Part shown: in pieces, positions 25,614 through 48,995 of the stretch
Layout of the letters: the number at the start of each line of letters is the position of its first letter
How positions within the stretch are numbered: position 1 is the stretch's first letter
Source of the DNA: an uncultured Mesonia sp.
GTDB lineage: Bacteria; Bacteroidota; Bacteroidia; Flavobacteriales; Flavobacteriaceae
Length of the DNA stretch: 64,000 nt
Assembly: GCA_958296185.1 (NCBI GenBank)
Contig: CATQIB010000007.1
Coordinates: 1-64,000 of the forward strand
Direction: 5' to 3'
Position numbers and translations under genes: made by a program
Notes under the pieces: model-generated
Told to the model about the DNA's origin: nothing
Database searches by the model: none
Seen by the model: only the letters and a program-made list of their open reading frames with translations

Positions 25614-25631
25614 TTATTTCCCGATACAGAA
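25614..25631 (-). repeat. Left attachment-site repeat (mnmE 3'-end copy)
   Basis: On the minus strand TTCTGTATCGGGAAATAA encodes Phe-Cys-Ile-Gly-Lys-stop, the exact C-terminus of MnmE. It is detached from the gene by the island. It matches 16 of 18 bases of the copy at 48978-48995. Confidence 0.85.
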
Positions 25632-25669
25632 TGTAACTATTGTTGATATTGTTGAGATGCGATGGTTTA

Positions 25670-25680
25670 GGCAACAAATA
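25670..25680 (+). repeat. Candidate integrase arm-site GGCAACAAATA (left end)
   Basis: The 11-mer GGCAACAAATA lies 39 bases inside the left att repeat and recurs at 48842 near the right end. Shared short repeats just inside both ends are typical of tyrosine-integrase arm sites. The site assignment is inference. Confidence 0.5.
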
Positions 25681-25788
25681 GGATACAAAGTAATTCAGAA
25701 AAAGGATAATTGGCGGCAAATAATCACAAATGGTAAACTATCATTATTAGGTCACTAAGATAGAAAATTTAATGAATAGAGCATAAAA

Positions 25789-25811
25789 AAACCGCTCACA
25801 AAGAGCGGTTT
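25789..25811 (-). terminator. Intrinsic terminator of the DUF6266 gene
   Basis: A perfect 9-bp stem AAACCGCTC / GAGCGGTTT with a 5-base loop. A-rich sequence on the plus strand to the left gives the U-tract on the minus-strand transcript. Confidence 0.9.
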
Positions 25812-25831
25812 CTTAACTTCAATCCTAAGAC

Positions 25832-26473
25832 TTATTGAGCGGTTCCAGAGCCTAAATAAGTACTGTTAGATACTTGACTGCCATCTGCATTAATGAAAGC
25901 TGCAAACAGTTCTACAGTATCTCCAGCGTAGGTAGTCGGAATAACTATGGTTTGACTTCCTGAAGTTCTGAGGTTACCATCAGTTACAGAAATGGATTCT
26001 TTCTTTGCTGGATTGTAAACCAATAGCATTGCTTTATCGGTCGTATTAGCATTTCCTTCTACCGAGTTATCATCCCAGTCGAAAGTTACTTCACCAGGGT
26101 TGGTTAAATCAGTAGTTCCATTTAGAACACCTGAAAGTCCTCCACGGCTAACTAAAGCATCATTGTAATTGACGTTAAAGTTAGGTGCAGTACCTGTTAC
26201 CGCATTGTTCAAAATGTACGACATAGCTGCGTTAAACTCGGTTTTCTTAATCGCGAGCGATTTGTAACCTTGTTTGATAAACGGCTTAATTGCCTGTAAA
26301 AATTCTAAAGTCACAGTAAACCTGTTTCGTTGGTTTACCTGACCTTCAGTACGTGGATTGGCTACACTTGAAGGTTTAATTCTAATGTAGTCAATTCCTT
26401 TCCAGCTTCCACCGATAACGTTTCCAACCTTACCTGAAAGCCCACCTAAGATTCCTTGTGCTATTTTACCCAT
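25832..26473 (-). CDS. DUF6266 family protein
   Basis: A 213-residue protein beginning MGKIAQGILGGLSGKVGNV, the recurrent start of this Bacteroidota family, with KPSSVANPRTEGQVNQRNRF and a beta-rich C-terminal half. The function is unknown; members are often scattered in accessory regions. It is the first gene inside the left island end and has its own terminator. Confidence 0.75.
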   Translation of the reverse strand: MGKIAQGILGGLSGKVGNVIGGSWKGIDYIRIKPSSVANPRTEGQVNQRNRFTVTLEFLQAIKPFIKQGYKSLAIKKTEFNAAMSYILNNAVTGTAPNFNVNYNDALVSRGGLSGVLNGTTDLTNPGEVTFDWDDNSVEGNANTTDKAMLLVYNPAKKESISVTDGNLRTSGSQTIVIPTTYAGDTVELFAAFINADGSQVSNSTYLGSGTAQ

Positions 26474-26896
26474 TGTTCTGATTTTTTGGGGTTAAACAAA
26501 ATTTGATTCGGACTTGGTATGGCTTTGGCCTGAAGCAATACCAGTTCTGCGTAATATATGGCAACTTCTGTGCAAATAGATACTATCAGTTTAGGTTGCA
26601 GACTTTTGCTGTGTTTTGCATTCAACTAAGAAAATGAACACATTTTTTTAAAAGAAAAAGAGAAAAAAGAAAGCCGTTTTGCTGATGGCGTGGCATTTCT
26701 GTCAAGCTTTTTGGAAAAAATCGTGCGCTTGGATAAGGTTTTAAAAAAAGTACGCCATTTTGTAGCGTACTATTTTTTTCAAAACCCTTGGGGCTTGAGC
26801 TTTACTGGAATATAGCGGTGGGCGTTGGAAGCCATCTATATTTGCCTTCTTTTTACTCTTTTACTATCTTTAGTATTTAAATTAAATTTATAGACA
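26474..26896. other. Intergenic region in the island, with a strong hairpin
   Basis: No coding region is recognised. AGTACGC (26749-26755) and GCGTACT (26765-26771) form a stem, flanked by an A7 run and a T7 run, so it can act as a bidirectional terminator. No gene immediately upstream on the plus strand explains it, and a short transcript ending here is possible. Confidence 0.45.
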
Positions 26897-27223
26897 ATGG
26901 CAAAATTTGAAATTTACAAGGATGCAAAAAGTGAATACCGCTTTAGATTAAAAGCAGGAAATGGTCAAAATATTTTAGCAAGTGAAGGTTATTCTTCAAA
27001 AGCTGGATGTGAAAATGGTATCGAGTCTGTTCGAAAAAACTCGCAAGATGATAGCCGCTACGATAGAAAAAAGTCGAGTAATGGCAAGCATTACTTTAAT
27101 TTAAAAGCTTCGAATGGTCAAGTTATCGGTACAAGTGAAATGTACGAGAGTTCATCTGGAATGGAAAATGGTATTGATTCCGTAAAAACTAATGCTCCTG
27201 ATGCAGAAGTAGTAGAAGTATAA
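26897..27223 (+). CDS. YegP family (DUF1508) protein
   Basis: A 108-residue protein of two tandem DUF1508 repeats. The first (about residues 3-50) has KFEIYKDAKSEYRFRLKAGNGQ...SEGYSSKAGCENGIESV, split here for length; the second (about residues 60-102) has YFNLKASNGQVIGTSEMY. DUF1508 proteins are small stress-associated proteins without a defined biochemical role. An imperfect stem downstream (about 27241-27278) may end its transcript. Confidence 0.85.
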   Translation: MAKFEIYKDAKSEYRFRLKAGNGQNILASEGYSSKAGCENGIESVRKNSQDDSRYDRKKSSNGKHYFNLKASNGQVIGTSEMYESSSGMENGIDSVKTNAPDAEVVEV

Positions 27224-27828
27224 ATATTAACTTCATAACCTTATATCAATCTAATATAAAATCAGATTGTATATAAGTTTTACTCAGTTTGTTGAGCAGG
27301 TAATCCAAAAGGCGCGAGCCGACTGCGAGATGAGCGAGGGTGCTGTGAGTGATAGCCTGTAGCGAGTTTATTTAATTGAAATTCCTTTTTTTGAGGATAT
27401 ATCGGTTGTTTGATTGATTCGAGCGGAAGGCTCTCACGGCTATGTAGCATACACAAGGCTGGCGCTGTTTTTTGATGCGGTGGGAAAGGCAAGTGCAGCG
27501 ATTGTAGGAAGCAATTTATTTCGGTGGCGGTGGGTTATCATCTTTCTTTAAAAAGGTGGTTTAAGGAATTGCGGATTTTGAGGAAATGGGTGATTTGGGA
27601 TTTACATTCCAATGTGAGATGTATAACCTGCCGTAGTGCGTTGGCTTAAATTGCTGACGGAATGAGCTGCTCTTGCGAGCGGTTGCAATATGTAATCATC
27701 CGCTGTTTGATTGTGGTTTAAATGTCATTTAAAGATGGTTGCTTTATTGTTTCAATTCAGTTTTATAGAATGGCAGCGGTGATTTCATATTGTGACTTGG
27801 ATGCACTCAAAAACTGTGACAGCCTGTA

Positions 27829-28003
27829 GACCTAAGCCCTATAGCAGACTTCCTATTCCGAAGTCAAAAAACGCGTCGAACTCAATCGCTTTGCTTCTTT
27901 AAAATCCTTCAATCGTAGTTACCACTATGCTCTTGTATTTTAAAGATTGATTTCTTAGCGTTTTGACCTTCTCATAACGAAATTCTGCTATGGGGTTTAG
28001 GTC
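27829..28003. repeat. 175-base imperfect inverted repeat
   Basis: The left arm starts GACCTAAGCCCTATAGCAGA. The reverse complement of the right arm starts GACCTAAACCCCATAGCAGA. Similarity continues through the GAAGTCAAAA / GAAGGTCAAAA segments and the inner CTTTAAAAT / ATTTTAAAG arms around a central TACC. The whole stretch can fold into one long interrupted hairpin. It could be a MITE-like element or a structured RNA. Confidence 0.6.
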
Positions 28004-28243
28004 GTAGCCCGAAGCGACCCGCAGGCTCGCAAAACATTAAGTAGCGGTAACACCCCAAAAAAACACTTGCGCGATAGCGCAAAACCTAATTGGGGTTTGG
28101 GGTGATAGAGTAGCTACGGGTGAGGAATGCGTGAAATGTGTGCAATAAAACAAATAAATAGTGCCAGCGAGGACGTGTCGCCGCAGTGGGGCTATTTATG
28201 GTATATGCAAGCCATACCTGTAAAAGTGTTATTTGTATTTAAG

Positions 28244-28269
28244 ACCTCTCGACTGCGCTCGAGGTGACA
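28244..28269. repeat. Short REP-like palindrome
   Basis: ACCTCTCGACTGCGCTCGAGGT with GACA following is an imperfect palindrome. It is of the kind I associate with dispersed intergenic repeats in flavobacterial genomes. Only one copy is in this window. Confidence 0.4.
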
Positions 28270-28578
28270 ATGGAAAATCGATGCTGGCTTGCAGATATGT
28301 TTTATGGAACTAAATGGAACAACTGACGAACACCTTATTACCTGCCTTCCCGAATGTTTATTGTTTGTACTGCTGTTTAATTGAAAGAGAAAACCCGAGG
28401 GCAAAGGCAAAAAGCACGAGCAATAGTTTTGAACTTCGTTTCTTTAAAAATCCTATGCTTAATAAAACTATTGCTGGTGCTGCGCGGAACCGTAGGCTTT
28501 TGCGATTGAATGAGTGTAGCGCGCGGAACGAATGAATGAGCGAGTGCCGAAGGTGGGGCTTTTAGTGTGTTTCATTTA

Positions 28579-29712
28579 CTACCAATAGTTTTTCTTTTTA
28601 GATTTTAACGTATCTCTATCAACATCCTTTAGCAGATCGACTTCTTTTTCTATAAAGGGGTCGTACCAATCTGCTTTTTCCTTTGCCCATTTAATCCACT
28701 CTTGTTTATCGGGATCAAGCGTTTTTGAATCAAGTGCATATTTTTCAAACTCATTGATGTAGTTTCTCAGGTATTGAGATTTATGCCATCGAGATGCGGT
28801 ATCAAATAATTGTTGAAAACGATTCAATTCATTATCCTTTAATGCTTGTAGTTGCTTTTCTCTTTCTCTTTCTTCCTCAATTTTTTTACGCCATAGAGCT
28901 CTTTGGATTGCTTGTTCCTCATCTTTTTTGGCCCTGATTTCTAGCCAAGAAAGAATATCAAGAACTCTTTCTTCTAATTGTTTAGTTTTTGAATCCGCCC
29001 ATTCTTTTATAGGTGAGTAATCATCAATTTTTAAGCATAATCTACCCGTGGGAACAAAAACGTAAGAGTCCCAACTTCGATTGTCTTCTCGTTTTACTCT
29101 CTTTGATTTCTCCGTGATGCGTATTGAGTAGGATTGCCCATTTATGGTTACTTCTGTCTTTTTATTTGAGGAAATCTTGTAACCTCTTTTGTCAAAAACT
29201 TTAAGTAACGTATCAAATATTCTGAGGGCTCTTGGGACTAAGCTTTCTGACACATTTATATTCAAAGCATCTGATGAATCCACATCGCTACTCCAGCCAC
29301 CTCGTTTTCGTATTATCTTCAACTGTTTGTGATACTCTTTGGTGGCCGTTACATACTTATGCGGTTTTGATATGCGATCTGGAACTGTAAACGTCAAATC
29401 CTCTATTTCCTTAAGTTCCTTTTTCCTTAAAGCCATCTGAGAATTGATATGGTTGCCCCCAGAAACGACAGAGATAGACTTCTCTAAAGTGATTTGGGGA
29501 TTATCGTCTTGCTTAGGCAGTTTTGTTTTAGTTACTTTTTTATTGAATTTAATTTTAGACCAATATCCATTTTTAGGTAATGGAATGTTATTCTTTTTGC
29601 AAATCTTACGTATACCATTGTCAGAAAACCCATATTCTTTAGCAATATGGGTAACTGGTTTACTCCAAACTAAATCATATAGTTGTTTTCTTGTTAAAAT
29701 ATTTTCTGACAT
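28579..29712 (-). CDS. Helix-turn-helix / coiled-coil protein in the pAgo operon
   Basis: A 377-residue protein. Residues 5-50 form a helix-turn-helix region (LTRKQLYDLVWSKPVTHIAK then YGFSDNGIRKICKKN, ending PLPKNGYWSK), a start seen in a widespread uncharacterised family. A long charged coiled coil (about residues 255-310, EEEREREKQLQALKDNE) and an acidic/aromatic C-terminal part follow. No nuclease motif is evident. It lies 7 bases downstream of the helicase gene on the same strand, so it is the third gene of the pAgo-helicase operon. A DNA-binding or scaffold role is inferred. Confidence 0.7.
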   Translation of the reverse strand: MSENILTRKQLYDLVWSKPVTHIAKEYGFSDNGIRKICKKNNIPLPKNGYWSKIKFNKKVTKTKLPKQDDNPQITLEKSISVVSGGNHINSQMALRKKELKEIEDLTFTVPDRISKPHKYVTATKEYHKQLKIIRKRGGWSSDVDSSDALNINVSESLVPRALRIFDTLLKVFDKRGYKISSNKKTEVTINGQSYSIRITEKSKRVKREDNRSWDSYVFVPTGRLCLKIDDYSPIKEWADSKTKQLEERVLDILSWLEIRAKKDEEQAIQRALWRKKIEEEREREKQLQALKDNELNRFQQLFDTASRWHKSQYLRNYINEFEKYALDSKTLDPDKQEWIKWAKEKADWYDPFIEKEVDLLKDVDRDTLKSKKKNYW

Positions 29713-29719
29713 TATAAAA

Positions 29720-31438
29720 TTATTTAATTGATAAAACTTTCATTCTTGCTCTGATTGATTTGGTTGAGCGTTCTAGGGTTGTTGCGATCCCTTTGATAGT
29801 AATACCATCACGTAACCCCTGTTTTAGTATTTGGTCTTGTTCAAACGTCCAAGGTGTAAAGGCTTTCGGGTACTTTTTTTGAATTTCTTTTGCAATAGGG
29901 GAATTTTCATCGATTTGTTGATCTTCTTCTGCCGGGACGGTAATAGGTTTAATATTGGGGGATGATTTAAAATAATCGGGAATGTAATTTTCTGGAATTA
30001 CCAATGTATTCTTCGCCCTTGTTATGGCTACATATAAGAGATTTATTTCTTCATTTATTCTATCTGCTAATAAACCTTCGTATTCGTCTTGTAGGTGCTG
30101 TATTCTATCTTTATCAATAAAATCTGCTGCCAACTTTACCGCATCATATTCCATACCTTTACTGCGGTGCACGGTTGAAAAGATGATTTCTGCTTCATCC
30201 TTTCTATCGCTATTGATGTGCTTTGTTTTAATTTCCTTAATAATGGCAGGAATTTTATCGCCGTATTTTTTTACTACCTCTACCATTAGGCCCAATTGAA
30301 CATCTTCGGTTTGCTTAATATAATCCTCTAAATCCTCTAAATCCTTCATCCCCTTAATCAGTGTATCTCTAATCAGATGTTTTTTGTCTTGATATAGATT
30401 TAAAATATCGTAAAGCGATGCCCCATCTTCAGCATAAGTATAAGAATTAATATTGCCCTCAAAGTAAATTTTAGATGCTTTGTTTTCTTCAACAACATAT
30501 TCTATTGCATTGACTAATAAACCTAAATTGGTTCGTGCTAATATTGCTTTTGTTTCAATTGTATCACAATTTCCCTTACCTTGAATTGATACCGCATTGT
30601 ACTCCACTACATTTCGTTTTAGGTCTAATGTGCTTTTGGCTAAATCTGCAATATCTTGATTAAACCTAAAACTGGTAGATAAGTTGTATGTCTTAAACTT
30701 TGCCTTTTCTAAAGAGTTTACCGCATATCGCCAGGAATAGATTTGTTGATGTGTATCGCCTACAATTACCTTAGTTGCCTCTTGGCTCATAAAAATATCG
30801 AGCATAGCTGCTGAGGCATCTTGACCTTCATCAAATAGTATGTAATCATACTTTAATTTAGGAAAAGAGAGTTGGTACTTTTTGAGGTAGAAATCGTGTA
30901 TGATATCTATTTCACCTTTATCCATTCGTTCGATGAAGTATTCTGTTTTTTCAACTATGGTGTCTAAATACTTTGAAACAAAACCTTTTGCCTTTGGGTC
31001 TGTTAGTGTTTCCAAATATTTTAAATCGCTTACTCTTTCAGCATCACTATTACAGTAATATGATGCTAACTTGTTGATGTGATTTGCTAATATGTACGCA
31101 CCGTGACGTTGTGAATCTTCGAATAAACCTAATATTGGTACTAACTCGTGTGACTTGTATCCTTGGCAGACTCTATAATTGTGTTTCCTAACTATGTAAC
31201 GATGTGCCAGAGAGTGAGCAGTTTCTACTTTAACGTTGGATAAGCCCTTTTGTTTAAACTTGTGTATTGCTTCTGTTTTAACAGATTTATTAAATACCAA
31301 GTATAGAATTTTAGCTGTTTTGGGTCTGCTTGCAGCATATTCAATTACTGTAGTCGTTTTGCCCGAACCAGCAATAGCGTTAATACGAATGTTGCCCTCA
31401 GAATTGATTATAGCCTTTTGTTCTTTAGTTAATTTCAT
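29720..31438 (-). CDS. SF1 UvrD/FBH1-like helicase partnered with pAgo
   Basis: The chosen start at 31438 (MKLTKEQKAI) lies 2 bases after the pAgo stop; an in-frame ATG at 31453 would overlap it. Numbering from 31453, Walker A is IAGSGKTTT (about residues 27-35) and Walker B is FDEGQD (208-212, Gly where UvrD has Ala/Tyr). Motif III is VGDTHQQIYSWR, with VHRSKGMEYD and LYVAITRAKN near the end. After the helicase core comes a separate tail, FTPWTFEQDQILKQGLRDG then SIRARMKVL, resembling a SANT/GcrA-like DNA-binding helix bundle. At about 575 residues it is shorter than UvrD (about 720). It probably unwinds DNA selected by the Argonaute (inference). Confidence 0.85.
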   Translation of the reverse strand: MKLTKEQKAIINSEGNIRINAIAGSGKTTTVIEYAASRPKTAKILYLVFNKSVKTEAIHKFKQKGLSNVKVETAHSLAHRYIVRKHNYRVCQGYKSHELVPILGLFEDSQRHGAYILANHINKLASYYCNSDAERVSDLKYLETLTDPKAKGFVSKYLDTIVEKTEYFIERMDKGEIDIIHDFYLKKYQLSFPKLKYDYILFDEGQDASAAMLDIFMSQEATKVIVGDTHQQIYSWRYAVNSLEKAKFKTYNLSTSFRFNQDIADLAKSTLDLKRNVVEYNAVSIQGKGNCDTIETKAILARTNLGLLVNAIEYVVEENKASKIYFEGNINSYTYAEDGASLYDILNLYQDKKHLIRDTLIKGMKDLEDLEDYIKQTEDVQLGLMVEVVKKYGDKIPAIIKEIKTKHINSDRKDEAEIIFSTVHRSKGMEYDAVKLAADFIDKDRIQHLQDEYEGLLADRINEEINLLYVAITRAKNTLVIPENYIPDYFKSSPNIKPITVPAEEDQQIDENSPIAKEIQKKYPKAFTPWTFEQDQILKQGLRDGITIKGIATTLERSTKSIRARMKVLSIK

Positions 31439-31440
31439 AA

Positions 31441-33528
31441 TTATAAAAACCAAAGTTTATTTTTTGCTTCCTCATCAATATCGTTTTTAAAACGTGGTAC
31501 TAATTGTGCAACCATTTCAGGGTATTTAATTGTTATAGGTACATTTTGAGGTTTTAAGGATTTCCAGTACAATCTACTAAACTGAAAAACTTGTGTTAGC
31601 AACTCAGTAATTACATTTTCATCTTCAAAAGCATCTTCATTAGGGCTACTCATACTGACTTTAATTGGAAATGGAAAGCCATCAGAATCATAAAAGCGTT
31701 CGCCTTCAAATCTACCGTTGTTAAATAACAAAAATTTACGCTCGCCTAAGCGTATGAATGTACCGCTATAAGGCATCAGATTATCTACAAAATCTGTGTC
31801 GTATGCTATGATGTCTTTAGTTTCAGTTTTATTGATATTAAGAATGTAAATAGGCTTGTTTTCCAAGTTAAGGTTATGCATACCTTCAAGAATGGGTTGC
31901 ATTTCTTTTTTACTCATTTCCTTATAAAAGTGAATCACAATCTTATCTGCTTCGGTCTGGTTAAAAAATGTTCGGATTGCTGTAACGATGCTTCCTGCTA
32001 ATACCTCAGTTTCTGTTTTTGAAAAACAATTGAACCTATTGAAAATACCATTATTTTGAAAGCTAAATGCACTTGCTACATAACGGTGATTTTTTTCTTG
32101 ATTAGTAAATGCGCCTACACCAATAACCAATTCTTTCTTTTCGGTAAGCGCGAGTTTCCAAGGTTTACCGCCTAATTTAGCGTGAATGGCCAATGAAATG
32201 TTGTTTAGGTGCCATTGATAGTTATTGATGTTGCGTTGTAAATCTTCAAAATCTATAGCTTGGGTCATAATGTCTTCTTTAAGACATAATTCTTTTAACT
32301 GATAATAAATATTCTTTAGTTCGGGGTCGGATTCAAAACGGGTGTATGGGCTAATGTAAAATGCGAGGTATGCAACTGATGGATCCCATTTTAAATCACC
32401 AAGTTTTTCTTCTATTTCAGGAATTGGGTTTTTCTTATTTTCAAATTCTATGAAGTGCTTTGGTGCTGAATTGACAGGAATATCGATGAATTTTTTTAAA
32501 CCTTGGTAGTATTTACCTGTCCCTTTTTTAAGATACCCCCATAGTTTTTTTATGGTTGCCTCGTGTTCTTTGTGATAAATAAAAAAGAATTTGATGTTTG
32601 GATTGGGTGGCCTAAAATAAGGTCTGTATCTATTAAGTTCTAATTTTGGTGTGATGCCAGTTTGCTTATTACCCTGAGCATTTTTACCATATTCTAATAG
32701 ACCTTTGTCTTTAGGTATATGACCTATGCGGCTTAATGGAGCATCTATAAATTCTTGACTTCTAAAATCGCATATCTTTTTAAAATCTTCGGTATAAAGG
32801 TATTCTTTGGTGAATTTTTCAATTTTCTCAAGATATTGGGTATATCTGTTTTCAGTTTTTTCAAATTTAAAAGGAATGTTGAGCGCTCTTTGAAGTTTAG
32901 GATTTAAACGCGGGAACACTTCTTCTAAAATCAAACTGTTGTAGAATTCTTGTTTTTCAGGTGTATCTGTATCAACTTGTAGATTTACTACTCTATTTCT
33001 GTAAATAGCCTTGGTTGCCAGATGTGAATCTTCTAGTTCTAGTATTGATTTTTTTAAAATTTTTGATGTACCATTGTAAGACACGACCAACTCGGGGTGT
33101 TTTGAAACTTGGCCTATTTGAATTTTAAGCGTGAATCTATCGTAATAGTGATAGTCCTTATGATATCTGTCTTTATCTACTACCCAAACCTGTCTATCTT
33201 TAAGCACACCGTTTTTGCGATTAATGATGTTTAGGCTATCAAAATACTTTCTTATTTGAGTGTTAAGAAACTGCTTGTACAGGTCTAGATTGGCATTGTT
33301 ACAATCTACTTTTAAAGCTTTGAAGTCTTTTTTGGGTGTTGTAAAAGTGGTATAAATTTCTTCTTTCCCCTCTAATTCTTCCTTACTGAACACATCGGTT
33401 ATGTTATATGGAAACTTTCTGTAATGAATGGTGTCTACACCTTCTTCTTTATTGAGTGACACGTAAAAAGTTAAAAGCTTACGAGGCCAATTGAAGTTAA
33501 GTATGTTGAATTTGATGTGTTCTTTCAT
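31441..33528 (-). CDS. Long prokaryotic Argonaute, catalytically inactive
   Basis: A 695-residue protein. The MID-PIWI half is clear. Tyr408, Lys412 and Gln423 with Lys451 (AKLGGKPWKL) have the spacing of the guide 5'-phosphate pocket (R/Y-x3-K-x10-Q, then a PIWI Lys). The PIWI catalytic tetrad is lost: VIGVGAF has Gly472 where the first Asp (GxD) belongs, and VIHFYKE has Tyr535 where VIHRDG has Asp. It should therefore bind a guide and target but not cut. Length and dead PIWI fit long-B-type pAgos, which work with separate effectors. It is first in a tight operon with the helicase and HTH protein, 64 bases after rhuM. Confidence 0.85.
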   Translation of the reverse strand: MKEHIKFNILNFNWPRKLLTFYVSLNKEEGVDTIHYRKFPYNITDVFSKEELEGKEEIYTTFTTPKKDFKALKVDCNNANLDLYKQFLNTQIRKYFDSLNIINRKNGVLKDRQVWVVDKDRYHKDYHYYDRFTLKIQIGQVSKHPELVVSYNGTSKILKKSILELEDSHLATKAIYRNRVVNLQVDTDTPEKQEFYNSLILEEVFPRLNPKLQRALNIPFKFEKTENRYTQYLEKIEKFTKEYLYTEDFKKICDFRSQEFIDAPLSRIGHIPKDKGLLEYGKNAQGNKQTGITPKLELNRYRPYFRPPNPNIKFFFIYHKEHEATIKKLWGYLKKGTGKYYQGLKKFIDIPVNSAPKHFIEFENKKNPIPEIEEKLGDLKWDPSVAYLAFYISPYTRFESDPELKNIYYQLKELCLKEDIMTQAIDFEDLQRNINNYQWHLNNISLAIHAKLGGKPWKLALTEKKELVIGVGAFTNQEKNHRYVASAFSFQNNGIFNRFNCFSKTETEVLAGSIVTAIRTFFNQTEADKIVIHFYKEMSKKEMQPILEGMHNLNLENKPIYILNINKTETKDIIAYDTDFVDNLMPYSGTFIRLGERKFLLFNNGRFEGERFYDSDGFPFPIKVSMSSPNEDAFEDENVITELLTQVFQFSRLYWKSLKPQNVPITIKYPEMVAQLVPRFKNDIDEEAKNKLWFL

Positions 33529-33592
33529 AACATATTATTTTTTTAGTTTACATATTGGGCTTGGGGTTTTTTGTAATTATTATACTTCGTTA

Positions 33593-34621
33593 TTAATTAT
33601 TTCCTGAGTTTTTTGCTTGTTTTAGATGCTTGTCAAAATCTGAAATGATTTTTTGGGTTTTATTAAATGTATCATATTCTTTAGCTGCTTTTGCAACTGC
33701 CTGTTTGTTTGAAATACGTCCTTTACCTTCTAATATTTGATATTCGTTAAAGTTTAAAAACTTGTCCACGCTTTCTGCAAGACCTTGCATAGTAAAGGTG
33801 TTACGTCTTTTGATTAGGTTTTCGATATAATCGAAGTAGCCAGAAACGTTGCGCTCTAGTTCTTTAATTTCGTCTTCTTCGAGATAGTTTTTTGCGATTT
33901 TAGCATCGGTTTTTAAGACTCTGCCGTCTGGTGCATTTTTATAGGTGGTTAAGCCCATTTTTGGCTTTTTGCTGTCTGCTCTTTTATGAATGATTTCGGC
34001 TGCTGTTTGTCCTGTAATGGCGAAATGAAACTTGTTTTGCACCATTGCATAAAAGTTTTTAGTAATCTCGCTTTTAGGATTATAATCAATACTACACTCT
34101 GCAAATATTTGTGTTACTTGATGGTAAATGCGTTGCTCACTAGCACGTATAGAGCGTACTCTATCGAGTAACTCTCTAAAATAGTCTTTGCCGAATGTGC
34201 TTTGTGCTTGTTTTAAACGGTTATCATCTAAAACAAAGCCTTTTATAATATATTCGCGTAAGGTTTTGGTGGCCCATATACGAAATTGTGTACCCTGAAG
34301 CGATTTTACACGATAGCCCACAGAAATAATAACGTCTAGATTGTAAAATTTGGTGGTATGTGTTTGTGTTTTACCCTTTATAGCACCGTGTTTTGTGGTT
34401 GTTCGGAAATTCCGAACAACCTCTTCTTCTATGAGTTCACCTTCTTGAAATACATTAGAAATATGCTCGCTAATGGTAGATTTTGCTCTGCCAAACAATT
34501 CTTGCATCCCTTCTTGTGTGAGCCAAACGGTTTCGTCTAAAATAAGTACTTGCAAGTTTACCTCGCCTTGCGGTGTTGTGTAAAGTAAAAACTCGCTTTC
34601 TTGTGGTAATTGGTTTGCCAT
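33593..34621 (-). CDS. rhuM: RhuM family protein
   Basis: A 342-residue protein with the family signature: an N-terminal TVWLTQEGMQELFGRAKSTI helix-turn-helix-like region, VVRNFRTTTKHGAIKGKTQ, YNLDVIISVGYRVKSLQGTQ and RIWATKTLREYIIKGF. RhuM proteins occur widely in pathogenicity and defence islands and near restriction systems. Their molecular role is unknown. It sits between the restriction-modification genes and pAgo on the same strand. Confidence 0.85.
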   Translation of the reverse strand: MANQLPQESEFLLYTTPQGEVNLQVLILDETVWLTQEGMQELFGRAKSTISEHISNVFQEGELIEEEVVRNFRTTTKHGAIKGKTQTHTTKFYNLDVIISVGYRVKSLQGTQFRIWATKTLREYIIKGFVLDDNRLKQAQSTFGKDYFRELLDRVRSIRASEQRIYHQVTQIFAECSIDYNPKSEITKNFYAMVQNKFHFAITGQTAAEIIHKRADSKKPKMGLTTYKNAPDGRVLKTDAKIAKNYLEEDEIKELERNVSGYFDYIENLIKRRNTFTMQGLAESVDKFLNFNEYQILEGKGRISNKQAVAKAAKEYDTFNKTQKIISDFDKHLKQAKNSGNN

Positions 34622-34700: not shown

Positions 34701-36917
34701 TTAAGAAATTTTCATTTCTAAAAATTGATTCAAACTTTTTCTCAATAAATCTCTACATTCTTCAGCTGATTTTAAATCTAAAGTGCTGACGTGTGCTGCT
34801 TTATTTCTATATTCTTTTTGAATTGTCTGTATCTGATTTAAGAAATCTTCACTTGTAATTTCTTCTTGAAAATAGGTTGTGCAAAATGCTCTGAAATGTT
34901 GTAGTAAGAGACTTTTTTTATAGGTACTTCCTTTTGGCTTCATTAAGTTTAAAATCCAATGCATATCTCCTAAAGGATAATGTGTATTGTTTCTTTTGAC
35001 ATATAAAGCAAATTTTGCTGCCTTTGTTCTATTTTCTATGTCATAAGTTACAAGTTCTTCAATATTTACATTGGCTAAACCTTCTGAATGATATTTTTGA
35101 AATAGTTTTATTAATATCTCATTTTCTAGTGTTCGGCAATATTGTAATACAAAAGGTGAAAAGTCAGGTTCTTTAAGATTGACTAATTCATCATATAAAA
35201 ATTCTGCTAAGGGTAAGAATTTTTTTGATGATGGATGTAATTCTTCCCATAAATGAAGCCAGCGTTGTGTAAGTAATTCATATTCTTCAATGGTTTCTCG
35301 CTTTTCATCTAAAACCGATTTAATGCGCCTATCTAAAGATGATAACAGTAAGAAAATTTTTTCTTCATCATCTCTGTAGTTGGACTTGATTCTAATAAAA
35401 TCATCCTGTAATGTATTTAGTACTTCTAAAATAGAATCTAGCTTAGTTCCTATTTTTTGTAATTCGTCTAAAATCTTTTTGTCTCTATTCTCCAGTATTT
35501 GCTTGAACCCATCTATTGAAATGGCATTACGTTTATGCTCTTCTAGCTTTGCTTTATAATACTCTACTTGCTCTTTAAGTTGTTCTAGCTCTTCTTTGTC
35601 TGCGTGTTCTATAGCATCATCACCCCAACTACTAATATCCTCAATTGGAAATATTGGAATTTTAATTCTTTTTAAACTTGAAATAGAAATTTGCGGAATT
35701 ACCGCTCCTGTTTGTAAATCTTCTGTTTGGGTTTTGAATATTTCTCTTCCTTTTTCTGTATCAAAATACACTTTGAGGTAATCATTATCTATACCTCTTA
35801 AAATGACCATATTATTGGATACTACGATTGGTGGATCATTTTGCTTAACTCTATATATTTTGCCTTGGTTAAAAACAGTTGAAATAAGTATATCACCAGG
35901 TTGTGCTAACGCCCTTTCTTCAGCTTTACTATCAAGCACATTTATATACCTTGACTTTTCACTCACAAGAACGGTATTATCTTTTATATCAATTGGTCTA
36001 ATTAACAGATAATTGCCTTGAGCTTTTTTTCTATCCTGCTTTATGTATGCCCCTCTTATAATTTCTGCAAGGTCTTCTAAGTTTTTAGTTTCAAATTCAT
36101 CTATAAAATCATATTTACCTGAATTAAGGCTTAAATAATATTCAGGGTTAAGGCGATTTTCAAGGTCTTTTTTGGGTAATGTTAATGACAAATGATTTGT
36201 AATAGTATTTTTGATATCTTTCATTTTATCTATTACCCCAAAGTGCATATTCTCTGTATGTGTTTTTGTAAGATGTACTAGATAGCGTTTGACACTTGAA
36301 TATGAAGGATTAGCAACAGGTAAGGCTACTATAGCATTTATGTTTGGCATAATACTTTCTCTAACATTTGCCGATGATGCTGTAGTAAGAAATGCATTAC
36401 TAGAAAAGAGAAAGGCTTCTCCTTTTTCATTCAGTAACTCTAGTGTTTTAAGTGTAAACGCTTCTTCCGAAGACATTTTTTTACCTTGATAGTTTAGCCG
36501 TAATCCCAAAGGTATGTTCGCTACTATAAGGTCGTATGTGTTATAACCTGTATATGTTAAAGCATCTGCACTGTTAATTTCTGCATCAGGAATGAGTAAT
36601 TGCGTTATTTTGGCAATAGTAGTATTAATTTCTATACCTGTAAGTTTGGCGTCATCAAATTTATTATGAAGAAAATACAAGATATTACCTAATCCACAGC
36701 AAGGATCTAATACCGTTTTAGGTGTTTTAGATACAGAATTTGTAATTAAAGAAGAGAATTGATTAGGTGTATAGTGCATATACAATTGTCTATCTTCTTT
36801 TATATTTTCAAAGAAGGATTCTCTATAATCTTCATTGTTAGATTTTGCTAGTTCCTCTAGCACTGTAGCGTAGTGTTCTAAACCTGTTGTAAAATCTCTA
36901 CTTTGAAAATAACTCAT
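34701..36917 (-). CDS. Methylase-like / TRD-like / coiled-coil / HEPN-like fusion protein
   Basis: A 738-residue protein. The N-terminal part has a Rossmann methylase with motif I VLDPCCGLGNIL (about residues 69-80), but the catalytic NPPY/F is replaced by ANIPLG. A region at about residues 250-430 resembles a type I S-subunit target-recognition domain (GAYIKQDRK...ALAQPGDILISTV). A coiled coil follows (about 440-560). The C-terminal 150 residues are helical and end with RNKAAH (Arg704 to His709), the RxxxxH motif of HEPN RNases. It shares TAATG-type overlap with the S-subunit gene upstream. It may be a DNA-sensing effector of the restriction system. The HEPN call is tentative. Confidence 0.7.
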   Translation of the reverse strand: MSYFQSRDFTTGLEHYATVLEELAKSNNEDYRESFFENIKEDRQLYMHYTPNQFSSLITNSVSKTPKTVLDPCCGLGNILYFLHNKFDDAKLTGIEINTTIAKITQLLIPDAEINSADALTYTGYNTYDLIVANIPLGLRLNYQGKKMSSEEAFTLKTLELLNEKGEAFLFSSNAFLTTASSANVRESIMPNINAIVALPVANPSYSSVKRYLVHLTKTHTENMHFGVIDKMKDIKNTITNHLSLTLPKKDLENRLNPEYYLSLNSGKYDFIDEFETKNLEDLAEIIRGAYIKQDRKKAQGNYLLIRPIDIKDNTVLVSEKSRYINVLDSKAEERALAQPGDILISTVFNQGKIYRVKQNDPPIVVSNNMVILRGIDNDYLKVYFDTEKGREIFKTQTEDLQTGAVIPQISISSLKRIKIPIFPIEDISSWGDDAIEHADKEELEQLKEQVEYYKAKLEEHKRNAISIDGFKQILENRDKKILDELQKIGTKLDSILEVLNTLQDDFIRIKSNYRDDEEKIFLLLSSLDRRIKSVLDEKRETIEEYELLTQRWLHLWEELHPSSKKFLPLAEFLYDELVNLKEPDFSPFVLQYCRTLENEILIKLFQKYHSEGLANVNIEELVTYDIENRTKAAKFALYVKRNNTHYPLGDMHWILNLMKPKGSTYKKSLLLQHFRAFCTTYFQEEITSEDFLNQIQTIQKEYRNKAAHVSTLDLKSAEECRDLLRKSLNQFLEMKIS

Positions 36918-38341
36918 TAATTAAGGTTTTTAGTATTCACATTAATATATTCTAACCCTTTATCTTCGCCTTCTTCAATAGCTATCTCTACTGCTCTTTT
37001 GGCTACTTCGAATAAATGCTCACTTTGTTTTTTTAGCGCAAAGCTTTCTTCTACTAAAGCTGCAATTTCTTGTTGTTTTATATAGTCTATTACTGGCACA
37101 AGTACATTTTCTATTTCGCTTACCCGCCAATGCAAAATAATAGAACCACCTGCATCTCTTTCTGCTTGCATTTGCACTACTTGGGAATTTAAAGCCAGCG
37201 TTAAATATTCTGGAATAATTTTAGACTCATCTTTTACTTTTAAATGCAAAATTGCTCCAGAGGTAATACCATTGAAATCTTCTCTTAAATGATAAGCAGT
37301 TCCTACACTACCATCTTTTGAAAATAAAATAGTTCCTTTCTTAGGCTTTAGCTTTTTAATCTTATCCTTATTTTCGGAAACAAAATCTGACGCTAAATAC
37401 TTTTGAGGTTCTGTTAAGCCAAATTTAGAATAATCTGCTACACGCATAAAAGGTAGCCCTTCTTCGCTATAGTTTTTAGAACCTGGCTCAATAGACTTTT
37501 TAATGCTTACAATATTTATTAAACTAACGTAGGGTTGTGATTTTATTTTCTCTACTATTTCATCATATTTAGGTTGGTAATACTCTGCATCTAATCTACC
37601 TGTATCCCCAAAACTATTTGAAAGTGATTTAACATTAATACCATCTGAACTTGGTGTGAAGTCTTGTAAGCCTAATTGTTCGAGCAATAATTTTTCAGCT
37701 TGTTTGTAGATTTGTTTTCCTTGTTCTCTATTAAGTTTAGATTCAACAACAATATCATCAATTTTTCCTTGAAAATCTTGAGACAACAGAGGTACTAAAA
37801 TTGATTTTACTTGTAATAAGTTTAAAAGCGGCTGTACATTTCCTGTCGAAAATCTCTCAGTCTGATACTTACCATAAGATGAATTTAAAAAAGTAGATAA
37901 AAACTTGGGATTCAGATTATTGTCAATTTTTTTTATTGTAGCAACATTTCTGTCGGTATTTGCTAATACATCATCATAAACAACACTTGATCTACCAATA
38001 GTACCTACAATTGACATTAACACATTGTCAACTTTAAGTGCTGAGCGTAAGTTTTTTAAATGTAATTTTTCAGAACACCTTCTGGTGTTATCTAAATCAA
38101 GATAATTCTCTTTTATATTATGACCAGATAAATATAAGATACCACTATTCTCATCAAGGTCAGGAGAACCGTGTTCTCCATCGGTAACAACTGCTAATTC
38201 TGATATTTTTTTTACAACATTTTGTTTAAGTTTTATTTCTTTATTTAAAAAATCACTTCCAAAAAATTCACTGTCAATTCTTCCAAAATCATTATTAATA
38301 ACTTCTTTGAAATTCAAAACACTAATCTCTAGCCCTTCCAA
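36917..38341 (-). CDS. hsdS: Type I-like restriction specificity subunit (HsdS)
   Basis: A 474-residue protein with two target-recognition domains in tandem. The first (about residues 30-200) carries YLSGHNIKENYLDLDNTRR. The second (about 250-450) carries LPFMRVADYSKFGLTEPQKY and GTILFSKDGSVGTAYHL. Each is followed by a conserved helix. Two TRDs imply a bipartite DNA target. It lies 32 bases after the nuclease-methylase gene. Its stop overlaps the start of the next gene, so all three are co-transcribed. Confidence 0.85.
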   Translation of the reverse strand: MEGLEISVLNFKEVINNDFGRIDSEFFGSDFLNKEIKLKQNVVKKISELAVVTDGEHGSPDLDENSGILYLSGHNIKENYLDLDNTRRCSEKLHLKNLRSALKVDNVLMSIVGTIGRSSVVYDDVLANTDRNVATIKKIDNNLNPKFLSTFLNSSYGKYQTERFSTGNVQPLLNLLQVKSILVPLLSQDFQGKIDDIVVESKLNREQGKQIYKQAEKLLLEQLGLQDFTPSSDGINVKSLSNSFGDTGRLDAEYYQPKYDEIVEKIKSQPYVSLINIVSIKKSIEPGSKNYSEEGLPFMRVADYSKFGLTEPQKYLASDFVSENKDKIKKLKPKKGTILFSKDGSVGTAYHLREDFNGITSGAILHLKVKDESKIIPEYLTLALNSQVVQMQAERDAGGSIILHWRVSEIENVLVPVIDYIKQQEIAALVEESFALKKQSEHLFEVAKRAVEIAIEEGEDKGLEYINVNTKNLN

Positions 38342-38373: not shown

Positions 38374-40449
38374 TTAACGCTTTCCCACAAAAGACAGTTT
38401 TTCTTTCTTGGCAAACTCTATAAAGGCTTCGGCTATACCGTCTTTGGTTAATCCATCGTGGTTATATAAGTCGTGTTTAACGATGAGGTGACCGTGGGTA
38501 TCTAATAAATATTCATCAAGATTTTTAGGGGTTTCATCATAATGATCTACTGGCTCTGCTACAGCATCATCATCAACATCTTTGTTAGCTGTTTTAGCTT
38601 TTGGAAACTCACTTTTCTTGACAAAGATTTTTTCACCACTACTGTCTTTACTTGGCTCTTGCATTGTTGCAAAGAAAATAGGATAATCGTCTACCTTAGG
38701 GCATAATGTATCATCCCATTTTTGTACAAATAACACGGATGTTTTAGTACCTGTATGTGGTTTAAATACGTTACCGTGTAAACCTACTACTGCTAATATG
38801 CGGCAATGCTCTGCAATGTAATCGCGTATGTTTTTATCACTACTATTGTTAAACCTACCTTGTGGCAATACTACTGCCATACGCCCACCAGGTTTTAAGA
38901 AATCGAGATTGCGCTCTATAAACAGAATGTCTCTACCTACTTTAGTTTGGTATTTGCCGTTTGGTTTTTTCCCTAATTCATACTTAGCTAATATTCTACT
39001 TTCTTTAATATCTCCGGCAAATGGTGGATTTGCCATTAATACATCGAAATTGAAATCTCTGTTAGAGCTACTACTAGCTCTTTGCTTTCTTAAGTTTTTC
39101 CAGCCTGTGTAATAGGTATCTTGCCAGTTTTCATCATCTGTTTTTTCATCCCAACGCTCATAATCTAATGTATTTAGATGCAATACATTGGTTTGACCAT
39201 CACCAGCAATTAAATTTAATGTTCTGGCTACACGTACCGCTTTTTCATCAAAATCTATAGCAAACACATTGTTTTGTACATAATCTTGAACTCTTGGTAT
39301 CGGTGGCTTGGTTGTCATTAATTCATCATCAACAATACCTTCCTCCTTGTGAATTTGATTTTTTACGTGAAAAAAGGAATGTACAGGAAACCCACAACTC
39401 CCAGCTGCCGTATCAATAATAGTTTCGTGTTCTTGTGGATTCATCATTTTTACACACATATCAATAACATAGCGCGGTGTAAAGTATTGTCCTTTTTCGC
39501 CTTTACTACTTTTATTAATCAAGTATTCAAACGCTTCATCTACCACATCTAAGTTTGAGTTGAATAGCTTTACATCCTGTAAGGAAGACACACAAACCGA
39601 TAAGTGGGATGGTGTCAACATTAACTTAGCATCTTCTGAAAATACACCTTCCCATTTGCTATTTGCTTTTTCAAAAAGCTTTTGAATTTTCTCTTTTAAT
39701 TCAGATTCTGTATCTCCATAATTACGGAATACTAAATGTCTGGTTTTATTTCTACCGCTTTCCATTTCATCATACAACTTGGTAAAAATGAGTTTAAAGA
39801 GTTCTTCAAATACATCTACACCTGCATTTGCTAATACCTCATCTTCCATTTCGAGAATCAAATCTTTTAGAGATTTTTTCTCTGTAACAAGTTTGTCTTT
39901 TTTGATAAGATCATCTATCGTCCAACGCTCAGAAAGTATGTCTGATAATTTTTCATTGGCGTTTGGTATTGCTGAAATATCTTCGAAATAGTTAGGGTCT
40001 TTTCTGTGATAGTATGAAATAGAATCTCCGTTACTCCAAACTCCAATAGGTGCGCCTGTAGCATTACAATAGGATTTTAATTGCTCTTTACCATCTTTTA
40101 ACTTTGGCTTTTTAAGCTCTACCATTAAGTAAATAGCCCTTGTATCCTTCTTGTCAAATACGACAATGTCTGCACGTTTCTTTTCACGTCCGAAACTTAC
40201 TGCGTATTCTAGCTCCATACGATCAAACGAATAATCGTATACTTCATTGAGCACCATTAGGTACAGTTGTCTAACCGCTTCTTCGGGTGTTAACTTTATA
40301 TCCTTATTACGTACTAAACATTTAATATATGGTGTTTCTTTTCCTCTTACATCTTTGGTAAAAATAGTAGCCTCTAAACGCTCTATTTGTTCAGGTTGAA
40401 ATTGGGTTAACTTGTAGTTGGAATCTTTTAATATTTCGGTAAGTGTCAT
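38374..40449 (-). CDS. Fused PD-(D/E)xK nuclease and N6-adenine methyltransferase (BcgI-like RM subunit)
   Basis: A 691-residue protein. Residues 50-130 form an HSDR_N-like nuclease: RADIVVFDKKDTRAIYLMVE then LKKP, giving Asp94...Glu111-Leu-Lys113. Residues about 200-640 are an HsdM-type methylase with QYFTPRYVIDMCVKMMNP, motif I DTAAGSCGFPV and catalytic ANPPFAGD. There is no HsdR translocase. A nuclease-methylase chain plus a separate S subunit is the architecture of BcgI-type (IIB/IIG) systems. It would methylate adenine in the recognised site and cut unmodified DNA. Confidence 0.85.
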   Translation of the reverse strand: MTLTEILKDSNYKLTQFQPEQIERLEATIFTKDVRGKETPYIKCLVRNKDIKLTPEEAVRQLYLMVLNEVYDYSFDRMELEYAVSFGREKKRADIVVFDKKDTRAIYLMVELKKPKLKDGKEQLKSYCNATGAPIGVWSNGDSISYYHRKDPNYFEDISAIPNANEKLSDILSERWTIDDLIKKDKLVTEKKSLKDLILEMEDEVLANAGVDVFEELFKLIFTKLYDEMESGRNKTRHLVFRNYGDTESELKEKIQKLFEKANSKWEGVFSEDAKLMLTPSHLSVCVSSLQDVKLFNSNLDVVDEAFEYLINKSSKGEKGQYFTPRYVIDMCVKMMNPQEHETIIDTAAGSCGFPVHSFFHVKNQIHKEEGIVDDELMTTKPPIPRVQDYVQNNVFAIDFDEKAVRVARTLNLIAGDGQTNVLHLNTLDYERWDEKTDDENWQDTYYTGWKNLRKQRASSSSNRDFNFDVLMANPPFAGDIKESRILAKYELGKKPNGKYQTKVGRDILFIERNLDFLKPGGRMAVVLPQGRFNNSSDKNIRDYIAEHCRILAVVGLHGNVFKPHTGTKTSVLFVQKWDDTLCPKVDDYPIFFATMQEPSKDSSGEKIFVKKSEFPKAKTANKDVDDDAVAEPVDHYDETPKNLDEYLLDTHGHLIVKHDLYNHDGLTKDGIAEAFIEFAKKEKLSFVGKR

Positions 40450-40468: not shown

Positions 40469-40765
40469 TTATTCTAAATCTTTAAAGTTCTTAATTTTTT
40501 CTTCAGCAATTTTGAGGATTTCCGTACTGTTCTTTTCCTCTTTTAGCATTTCTGTTATTTTATCTGCCATCCAGATTTTTAATAATTCCGTTTCATTTTC
40601 ATTGAGTGCTACTGCTAAAGCTTGTACTTGCTCTTTTCTTGCTATACGTGTGCTACGTTCAATTTTGCTAAGTAAGGCTGTATCGATATTCATTTGCGAT
40701 GCGACCTCACGTAACAATAATTGCTTTTGCTCTCTTAGCTTTCTAATATGTTCGCCGAACGTCAT
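40469..40765 (-). CDS. XRE-family controller protein
   Basis: A 98-residue protein. Residues 4-58 are an XRE helix-turn-helix (EHIRKLREQKQLLLREVASQ, then ALLSKIERSTR). A helical tail with KIWMADKITEML follows. It is the first gene of the restriction-modification operon, 19 bases before the nuclease-methylase gene. Controller proteins of this type delay nuclease expression. An AACAACTG...CAGTTGTT inverted repeat upstream is a candidate site. Confidence 0.85.
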   Translation of the reverse strand: MTFGEHIRKLREQKQLLLREVASQMNIDTALLSKIERSTRIARKEQVQALAVALNENETELLKIWMADKITEMLKEEKNSTEILKIAEEKIKNFKDLE

Positions 40766-42870: not shown

Positions 42871-42899
42871 AAAACCGAGGTATTCCCTCGGTTTTGTTT
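42871..42899. terminator. Bidirectional terminator between RT and primase genes
   Basis: A perfect 10-bp stem AAAACCGAGG / CCTCGGTTTT with a TATTC loop. T-rich sequence follows on the plus side and A-rich sequence precedes it. It serves the RT gene and the convergent primase-like gene. Confidence 0.85.
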
Positions 42900-44632: not shown

Positions 44633-45540
44633 AGTAGTCTATGTCTTTTATGTAAGTAGGCATTGGCATCGTGCGGTAAAAAACAGGCTCTGGAAACGTC
44701 TTTTCCCGATGCGTCAACCTCAAGGTTATAGGTATGTTTGATGTAATTTGTAATTGCCAAGAAGTTCTCTTGATGCGTGAATTCTCCCAGCTCAATGCGA
44801 ACAATCCATTTTAAGCCATCGCCAGATGGTGAAATGAAAAGCATTTCGGTTTCGAAATATTCATCATCAAGTAGTTGTTGCCTGACTTTTTCTATGTCTT
44901 GCAAATGGTCAAAATCAAGTGTGATAAGGTTGGAATGCTTTTGCAGAAACTTATCATTTCTGCGTTCAAATACTCCTGAGAATGTGACGTAATCAAAGCG
45001 ATTAGCTTTGAATTTCCGTTTTTCCTTACTATCCTCGATTGCCCTAAGTTTCTCGGTTATGGCTTTATACTTATCGCCAACAATTAATTGATGGATTTTG
45101 CCCAAACGTAAGGTTTCCGAAGGAAATACATTGCGTACCGGTGCTTTAAAAAAACTACAGTCTGTATACCAAGTATCATCTGGTTTATTTACCCAGCTTA
45201 ATTCATCTTCCTCTTCAACTGTAAGGTTAAGATGCAAGGCATCGTTAATCTTGTTCAGTAATTCGTCTTCTGTTTTGGTTTCAAAATAGAACTGTGCAAA
45301 GTCGAAGGCATCGCCTGAGAAACTTTTGTATTCTGTATCACTATGAAGAGCCATACCGTCCTCAATACGAATCGATAAGATTTCCTTATCTGCATTAAAA
45401 GGGTTACGCGTTATCCCGCACGTCCTTCCCGAAAGGGAAAGGACGGTTGTATCGGGATAGAATTGTCTCAACACATAGGCATATATCTTTATGCCATAAT
45501 GTGTTTTTGCCAAAATGTTCTTTCTACTTAACTCCATCAC
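44629..45540 (-). CDS. BT4734/BF3469-type protein (VirE N-terminal-like)
   Basis: A 303-residue protein with LITLDFDHL and LFISPSGDGLKWIV, the conserved strands of the BT4734-like N-terminal domain found in mobile-element primases. An N-terminal part of about 100 residues precedes these. It overlaps the next gene by 4 bases, and the HTH gene upstream by 17. It is likely the N-terminal half of a split primase, acting with the PriCT-2/DUF3987 protein. Confidence 0.8.
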   Translation of the reverse strand: MMELSRKNILAKTHYGIKIYAYVLRQFYPDTTVLSLSGRTCGITRNPFNADKEILSIRIEDGMALHSDTEYKSFSGDAFDFAQFYFETKTEDELLNKINDALHLNLTVEEEDELSWVNKPDDTWYTDCSFFKAPVRNVFPSETLRLGKIHQLIVGDKYKAITEKLRAIEDSKEKRKFKANRFDYVTFSGVFERRNDKFLQKHSNLITLDFDHLQDIEKVRQQLLDDEYFETEMLFISPSGDGLKWIVRIELGEFTHQENFLAITNYIKHTYNLEVDASGKDVSRACFLPHDANAYLHKRHRLL

Positions 45541-48758: not shown

Positions 48759-48841
48759 AAATGGTACATTATGTAGCGTTATGGTGCAACGTGGGGCAAT
48801 ATGGTGCATCATTTCGCCTTGTTTCCTAAACCTGAGAATTG

Positions 48842-48910
48842 GGCAACAAATACCTATATCAGGCAACAGATATACAACAAATATAGCTTAAAAAAAGCAA
48901 AAAGGCAACA
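48842..48910 (+). repeat. GGCAACA repeats, candidate arm-type sites (right end)
   Basis: GGCAACA occurs at 48842, 48862 and 48904, so spacings are 20 and 42 bases, near multiples of 21. The first is part of GGCAACAAATA, which also occurs at 25670. They lie between the zinc-finger/HTH gene and the right att repeat. Confidence 0.5.
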
Positions 48911-48977: not shown

Positions 48978-48995
48978 TTACTTTCCGATACAGAA
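48978..48995 (-). repeat. Right attachment-site repeat within the mnmE 3' end
   Basis: The minus strand reads TTCTGTATCGGAAAGTAA, the last 18 bases of mnmE including the stop codon. It differs at two positions from the left copy at 25614-25631. Both copies encode FCIGK-stop. Confidence 0.85.

Follow-up and report, generated by a model that had tools for sequence, protein, structure and literature searches.

A predicted non-cutting Argonaute as a probable core gene of integrative elements at the 3' end of mnmE

The 64,000-nucleotide stretch analysed here, hereafter the window (positions 1 to 64,000 of contig CATQIB010000007.1, assembly GCA_958296185.1), comes from an uncultured Mesonia sp. of the Flavobacteriaceae and carries a long prokaryotic Argonaute (pAgo) within a 23.4-kb integrative element (25614-48995), which is inserted at the 3' end of mnmE and flanked by 18-bp repeats. 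The pAgo gene (31441-33528, 695 amino acids (aa); recognized from its open reading frame (ORF), Pfam Piwi and PADLOC matches and a family alignment) heads a group of three genes on the minus strand. It is followed after 2 bases by an FBH1/UvrD-like superfamily 1 (SF1) helicase (29720-31438, 572 aa from its ATG; ORF, Pfam and PDB sequence match) and, after a further gap of 7 bases, by a protein with a helix-turn-helix (HTH) and a coiled coil (28579-29712, 377 aa; ORF, homologue scans and model). An initial annotation had described these genes as a tight operon with the same two gaps, which our coordinates and ORFs confirm; the surroundings are rich in defence genes.

What kind of Argonaute is this? 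The protein matches Pfam Piwi (E 2.3e-13) and, over residues 3-695, the PADLOC pAgo model PDLC02385 (800 bits). By sequence, it comes closest among solved proteins to AF1318 (AfAgo), EcAgo and the entries 6d95, 5awh and 6d8a, which we take to be RsAgo, and a profile of 13 family sequences matched only AfAgo, EcAgo and RsAgo entries in the PDB (E <= 1e-10). Since the AlphaFold model is too poor for use (predicted local distance difference test, pLDDT, 37.8), the MID-PIWI assignment rests on these sequence profiles. The MID residues annotated as a guide 5'-phosphate pocket (Y408, K412, Q423 and K451; motif Y-x3-K...Q...K) are present as described and invariant in 40/40 full-length family members, that is, the 42 loci defined below minus two that hold shortened pAgos. 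The same 40 proteins carry Gly and Tyr at the annotated positions of the lost PIWI aspartates (G472 and Y535, in the columns as assigned from sequence). With its MID motif and a PIWI domain devoid of the DEDX tetrad, the protein has two features expected of a long-B pAgo, and the invariant residues support the earlier prediction of a long pAgo that keeps its guide pocket but does not cleave. EcAgo, itself a long-B pAgo, loads 5'-phosphate small RNA guides from the transcriptome and recognizes DNA, as described in the passages that treat it (PMC10620215). The invariant pocket argues for an EcAgo-like use of 5'-phosphate guides, and the missing aspartates argue against slicing.

The two genes behind the pAgo are of different character. 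In the helicase, Pfam reports UvrD N- and C-terminal domains and no nuclease domain; its sequence matches a single solved protein at E <= 1e-5, F-box DNA helicase 1 (E 2.4e-52), and the SF1 motor motifs were read by eye. The annotated UvrD/FBH1-like helicase with all motor motifs therefore stands, with the motifs as judged by eye, apart from the numbering of its Walker lysine, which is K27 counted from the ATG and K32 only from an upstream TTG at 31453. The HTH protein matches no Pfam family above the cut-off and no solved relative in the PDB below E 0.1, and its AlphaFold model, which is poor (pLDDT 51.1), shows N-terminal helices and a 62-residue helix.

Do the three genes form a recurrent system? 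We searched 395 Bacteroidota genomes and, as a second sample, 339 Flavobacteriaceae, and assembled 42 pAgo loci: the window, L003-L006, L033-L040 and 29 further Flavobacteriaceae loci. Counts of neighbours cover the stretch fetched around each locus unless whole genomes are stated; in L040 the contig ends just behind the pAgo, so that an absence of downstream genes cannot be read there. The 42 exclude L007, L041 and pAgos that are either more remote, mostly at less than 32% identity, or incomplete; in those fetched at length (L007, L041-L052), neither helicase nor HTH gene was found. The close relatives in the genome collection scan are the pAgos of L003 (91% identity), L004 (83%), L005 (82%) and L006 (77%). 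In L003 the pAgo is followed by a 240-aa HEPN-like gene, the helicase (96%) and the HTH gene (94%); in L004 by an ATPase of 812 aa with a weak likeness to UvrD (E 0.0096 in Pfam, short of the cut-off), two small genes and an HTH gene (49%). In L005 and L006 neither the helicase (E <= 1e-15) nor the HTH protein (E <= 0.001) was found in the whole genomes. Of the 395 genomes, 22 have a pAgo relative (E <= 1e-10) and three have both pAgo and HTH: the window's genome (G000), G222, where a distant pAgo lies about 10 kb from the HTH gene (L222) on one contig, and G235, where the two are on different contigs. The Flavobacteriaceae yielded 32 pAgo loci in 30 genomes (E <= 1e-80), three being those of the window, L003 and L004; the examined stretches of the 29 others hold no homologue of helicase or HTH.

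In total, the helicase stands behind the pAgo in two of the 42 loci (window and L003) and an HTH homologue in three, and the full trio occurs only in the window and L003. Lack of recurrent linkage was an outcome that the initial annotation had itself named as refuting its guide-directed, helicase-based trio; the trio thus did not survive the co-occurrence check, and we reject the three genes as a recurrent system. The whole genomes of nine pAgo carriers, searched at the thresholds used for L005 and L006, agree with this: only L003's helicase was found (1/9, not found in 8/9), and only the HTH proteins of L003 and L004 (2/9). Helicase homologues exist in 11 of 296 genomes (E <= 1e-40), and at none of the ten loci outside the window does a pAgo or HTH gene lie in the examined stretch. 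The FBH1-like helicase and the HTH gene therefore look like recent, exchangeable cargo captured behind the pAgo in one small lineage, and not like fixed partners. Nor do helicase and HTH constitute an independent two-gene system, as they stand together in 0/10 helicase loci and 0/23 HTH loci (four of them plasmids) in the stretches examined.

The HTH family itself is widespread and mostly lives without this pAgo. Relatives were found in 20 of the 395 genomes (E <= 1e-5) and on alphaproteobacterial plasmids; they lie behind a TOTE-type pair, HsdR, an SF1 helicase-Fic pair or a PLD protein, and near a HerA-SIR2 pair. A same-strand gene ends less than 150 bases upstream in 10 of 23 loci, and the upstream neighbour is on the opposite strand in eight. 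Most simply, we infer a hitch-hiking, regulator-like gene of defence loci. As a side observation, at L077 (4335-9107, on a plasmid of Chryseobacterium oryzae) and at other HTH loci the family follows unrelated defence genes. On viral contigs, where single-protein scans reach only close relatives, none of the three proteins had a confirmed relative; plasmids yielded pAgo matches of only 21-28% identity over the PIWI part in ten records, none covering 80%.

The divergence between the window and L003 also differs along the operon. The alignment is 93.5% identical at 25614-31439 and 89.0% at 31441-33566, and synonymous divergence (dS) is 0.56 for pAgo, 0.33 for the helicase and 0.18 for HTH; the pAgo-helicase junction is a seam between stretches of unequal divergence. 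The ratio of nonsynonymous to synonymous divergence (dN/dS) of the pAgo is 0.04-0.08 in the eight of ten pairs for which dS was computable, including pairs with L005 and L006, so the pAgo is under purifying selection also where the genome lacks helicase and HTH. For the helicase and HTH, the window-L003 pair likewise gives values indicating purifying selection (0.06 and 0.14).

A dedicated DdmDE-like system, in which the non-cutting pAgo locates the target and brings in the FBH1-like helicase while HTH acts as regulator or third subunit, could draw on the tight operon, on the presence of helicase and HTH beside the pAgo in L003 as well, and on the purifying selection acting on both. It could also draw on the helicases of other loci: with the UvrD-like ATPase behind the pAgo in L004 and a PIF1 helicase in L173, SF1-type helicases may have landed behind this pAgo about three times. 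Against this stand the two loci in 42, the eight of nine pAgo genomes without the helicase, the HEPN-like gene that separates pAgo and helicase in L003, the unequal synonymous divergence of the three genes, and the ten homologous helicase loci without pAgo or HTH. We regard such a system as unlikely.

If the neighbours behind the pAgo are unsteady, what is it steadily linked to? A primase is encoded ahead of the pAgo on its strand in 34 of the 42 loci: in the window, on the pAgo contig of 9 of 13 further genomes, and in 24 of the 29 further loci. The 13 include G337, which is not counted in the 42, and G108, G286 and G235, which are counted as L038-L040. One of the nine linked genomes, G146, has a stop codon in the primase, and the four misses are G108 (primase on another contig), G286, G235 and G337, whose pAgos are 31-34% identical. 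Of the 29 further loci, 25 have an XRE-type homologue ahead of the pAgo on its strand, and in L174 and L193-L197 the pAgo starts 5-20 bases behind this gene. The integrase adjoins mnmE in nine of the ten loci of the first clade (the exception being G126) and can be seen to do so in 11 of the 29 others. Among the 395 genomes, five of six carriers of an integrase of at least 63% identity, the window's genome included, also have the pAgo; ten genomes with integrases of 47-51% are not in the pAgo list.

The ends of the element can be placed precisely in the window. The integrase adjoins mnmE, and direct repeats lie at both ends: the last 18 bases of mnmE form the left attachment site (attL, 48978-48995, minus strand), and a repeat search found a 16/18 copy at 25614-25631 on the same strand (attR), at the very base where synteny with L003 stops. 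Shuffling the bases of 8 kb 200 times gave no match better than 14/18, and the real tails of other loci show chance-like best matches of 12-14/18. Repeats of the mnmE end recur in L003 (17/18, at its own synteny break), G057 (18/18 and 17/18) and G281 (16/18), with attR candidates at 16/18 in L192 and L201 and, by eye, at best a decayed copy in L004. On contig C1 of G057 (L134), two mnmE-end repeats follow one another behind the pAgo element (395719 and 401993), as would result from the arrival of another small element at this site. We take mnmE, trmE and thdF to be one gene. Genomic islands at trmE other than SGI1 have been reported (PMC8409611, PMC7449626). In Salmonella, SGI1 itself targets the final 18 bp of thdF and is flanked by 18-bp direct repeats, according to the passages on its insertion (PMC2297512). 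The window element shares this use of the last 18 bp, whereas its hosts are Bacteroidota and its core genes are different; the likeness is one of insertion site.

From mnmE inwards, the element reads as follows, with the genes as far as the pAgo on the minus strand unless stated. Next to mnmE (48978-50375; TrmE_N and MnmE_helical domains by Pfam) lie a small HTH_17 protein (48390-48866, between mnmE and the integrase), the tyrosine integrase (47288-48382), a DUF6617 protein of the element core (46305-47288) and an excisionase-like HTH_17 protein (45817-46119), all identified with Pfam. The core continues with a BT4734-like_N protein (44629-45540; Pfam E 2.7e-21), a family (PF08800) that was formerly, we believe, named VirE_N, and with a PriCT_2/DUF3987 primase (42899-44632; Pfam). 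A DRT2-family reverse transcriptase on the plus strand (41257-42861; PADLOC Drt2, E 1.8e-126) is cargo; the L003 element holds a 66% relative of it. Between primase and cargo lies the 98-aa XRE-type HTH gene (40469-40765), recognized by homologue comparison, whose L005 homologue is HTH_31/HTH_3 by Pfam. The variable restriction-modification (R-M) block follows, with an N6-methylase bearing an N-terminal HSDR_N_2 domain (38374-40449, type I/IIG-like; Pfam, PADLOC), an HsdS-like specificity protein (36917-38341; Pfam, PADLOC) and a methylase/specificity protein (34701-36917; Pfam). A RhuM-family protein (33593-34621; Pfam PF13310, E 9.1e-104) stops 64 bases before the pAgo start. Toward the right end, several loci have a DUF6266 gene (window 25832-26473; L003, L004, L034, L173, L178, L192, L212, L214), and two mnmE elements without pAgo are among its carriers. 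No relaxase was found among the element proteins scanned with Pfam, Rfam returned nothing at gathering score for 24000-52000, and the window contains no tRNA or tmRNA.

On either side of the pAgo the cargo changes from locus to locus. Between primase and pAgo we find type I/IIG-like genes in the window, type III in L003 and L037, type IIG in L005 and L006, an AAA_5 gene paired with one of 559 aa (by eye, McrBC-like) in L033 and L034, and type I genes with a YhcG/DUF1016 nuclease in L035. As only the XRE-type gene separates primase and pAgo in L174 and L193-L197, we reject the notion of the pAgo as a fixed R-M appendix, even though R-M and restriction-like genes often precede it. Behind the pAgo lie the FBH1-like helicase, the PIF1 helicase (L173, E 3.2e-31), DISARM-related genes (L033, L180), a HEPN-like gene with DUF4238 (L176), an HsdM-type R-M system (L193) or an AcrB-family efflux gene (L006, L037). 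The latter is fused to an outer-membrane efflux domain (L006 10674-15008, L037 3572-7885), in elements of different families, and genes of AcrB-like size, counted by size alone, stand behind the pAgo in 14 of the 29 others; it may be resistance cargo or mark a common neighbour site.

A HEPN-like gene adjoins the pAgo in 10 of 42 loci, directly after it in seven and before it in three (L178, L183, L188). It starts 6-9 bases behind the pAgo in L003, L176, L177, L181, L182 and L184 and adjoins it in L192; the copies of the six other loci are 58-59% identical to that of L003. Its motif, read by eye, is of the R-N-x-x-V-H type (L176 7860-8594, L003 10095-10817, L178 11018-11725). It is a candidate pAgo partner that is absent from the window. 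Could a HEPN/Abi-like ribonuclease be the ancestral toxic partner, with the pAgo sensing and HEPN cutting RNA, and have been lost from the window copy? Its position directly behind the pAgo in the seven loci speaks for this, as does the precedent of other long-B pAgos with toxic downstream partners, described in the relevant passages of PMC10620215. However, no homologue lies beside the pAgo in 32 of the 42 loci, the gene is upstream in three, Pfam support is weak (Abi_2, E 1.4e-5, in L003; none in L176 and L178), and the two bases between pAgo and helicase in the window leave no remnant. We consider this account improbable.

How does the window pAgo relate to described systems? UvrD helicases and VirE-N proteins have already been recorded as pAgo neighbours (PMC6299218, PMC10620215, in the portions dealing with neighbourhoods). 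Within the orthogroups defined by Ryazansky 2018 (in the passages on classification; PMC6299218), the og_54 VirE-N subclade of long-B pAgos has a VirE-N gene 2-8 genes upstream of the pAgo and is left without an assigned function where it is described (Song 2023, PMC10620215). It shares with our locus, as far as that description goes, the dead PIWI, a YK-type MID and the upstream VirE_N/BT4734-like gene, here the seventh gene on the pAgo strand and thus within this range, next to the primase linked in 34 of 42 loci. By these features the window pAgo fits the subclade. In that description the VirE-N protein is listed as an associated protein, whereas here its gene belongs to the integrase-primase core of a mobile element. 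BPAN, BPAS and BPAM, in the passages describing them (PMC10620215), likewise combine a dead long pAgo of the same broad class, encoded first, with a downstream partner. However, our locus has no PD-(D/E)XK nuclease, SIR2 or membrane protein behind the pAgo; directly downstream lie the UvrD/FBH1 helicase and then the HTH protein, and the downstream genes are not conserved. The window's genome does hold a second, distant pAgo near R-M genes (L007, 5198-7000, contig C15 of G000), overlapped by a BPAM-like gene of 287 aa (6988-7851) with hydrophobic C-terminal segments by eye and no Pfam match. Lone C-terminal fragments of the same pAgo family (L042 7640-7921, on contig C19 of G000, and L046 7253-7627; ORFs of about 150 aa) are probably gene remnants. 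Finally, DdmD is a superfamily 2 (SF2) helicase with a PD-(D/E)XK nuclease domain. The same holds for ApsA of ApsAB, as characterized in the passages on that system (PMC11096173), and both systems share with our locus a non-cutting Ago-like protein and a helicase; the helicase here, in contrast, is SF1, shows no nuclease domain and is not conserved. A literature search found no report of a pAgo in an mnmE element, which does not prove absence; apparently new, in that we have not seen them in print, are the mapped element ends, the placement of the VirE-N gene in the element core and the steady pAgo amid changing neighbours.

The element ends, the integrase-primase core, the steady pAgo with its invariant guide pocket and lost catalytic residues, the changing genes on both sides and the purifying selection on the pAgo in genomes lacking the helicase can be read from the sequences themselves. 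The pAgo looks like a core gene because the primase is linked to it in most loci while the genes between and behind vary. The reading that we favour, as rather probable, is of a branch of integrative elements at the mnmE 3' end that has the pAgo among its core genes, with helicase and HTH as cargo captured behind it in one small lineage. Several observations weigh against it. The fetched tails of most other loci, among them L005, L006, L035, L036 and the majority of the 29, yielded no convincing attR, and five of the 29 show no primase in their fetched stretch (L173, L183, L190-L192; the pAgos of L191 and L192 are the shortened ones). G126, L194-L196 and L198 are not at mnmE, the four L loci having a 56% integrase and another site, and in 14 of the 29 loci the integrase-mnmE side was not visible. 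The sixth carrier of a close integrase, G355, has a degraded copy at a contig end and no pAgo; it is counted as lacking one because the whole-genome pAgo search did not find one either. Among 80 of the 309 pAgo-negative Flavobacteriaceae, the integrase occurs at 73% in two and at 59% in one. The two 73% integrases (G478, G468) belong to mnmE elements with end repeats that are identical or differ at two positions, and these carry another replication module; thus, the pAgo belongs to the primase-type branch and not to every such element. Lastly, both helicase and HTH are present in the window and in L003, which leaves room for a joint function there.

What might a non-cutting Argonaute do for such an element? 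By analogy with its long-B relatives, it would load 5'-phosphorylated small RNAs from the transcriptome and, so guided, bind complementary invader DNA without cutting it. This binding might in turn serve the element by excluding plasmids, phages or rival elements, either on its own or by marking DNA for an available effector, be it R-M, HEPN-like, DISARM or host nucleases. The helicase of the window, an add-on rather than a required effector, might unwind DNA that the pAgo has marked, or strip it. With no conserved effector in sight, the simplest account is that the protein acts by binding alone or tags DNA for variable effectors, and the pAgo would most likely be a guide-loaded, non-cutting sensor or blocker that serves the element. 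A more tentative proposal, which we consider possible, goes further: beside its integrase-primase module, this element branch would maintain a programmable, non-cutting Argonaute for guide-directed exclusion and leave killing or clearing to interchangeable cargo (R-M, HEPN-like, DISARM, here the FBH1-like helicase). Least likely of all is a role outside defence, in which the pAgo rides along silently or regulates replication and excision of the element. Such a role would agree with the steady integrase-primase-XRE linkage, the lack of a steady effector and the pAgo start just behind the XRE-type gene in L174 and L193-L197, but the purifying selection on the pAgo argues against silence, and the neighbours tested are largely defence genes.

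The function of VirE-N-linked long-B pAgos is left open in print, in the passages that discuss them (PMC10620215). Should it be a mobile element, rather than an effector, that accompanies them steadily, exclusion between elements and plasmids becomes relevant beside abortive infection with a toxic partner. The mapped att sites, together with natural variants with and without R-M, the HEPN-like gene and the helicase, make such exclusion directly testable.

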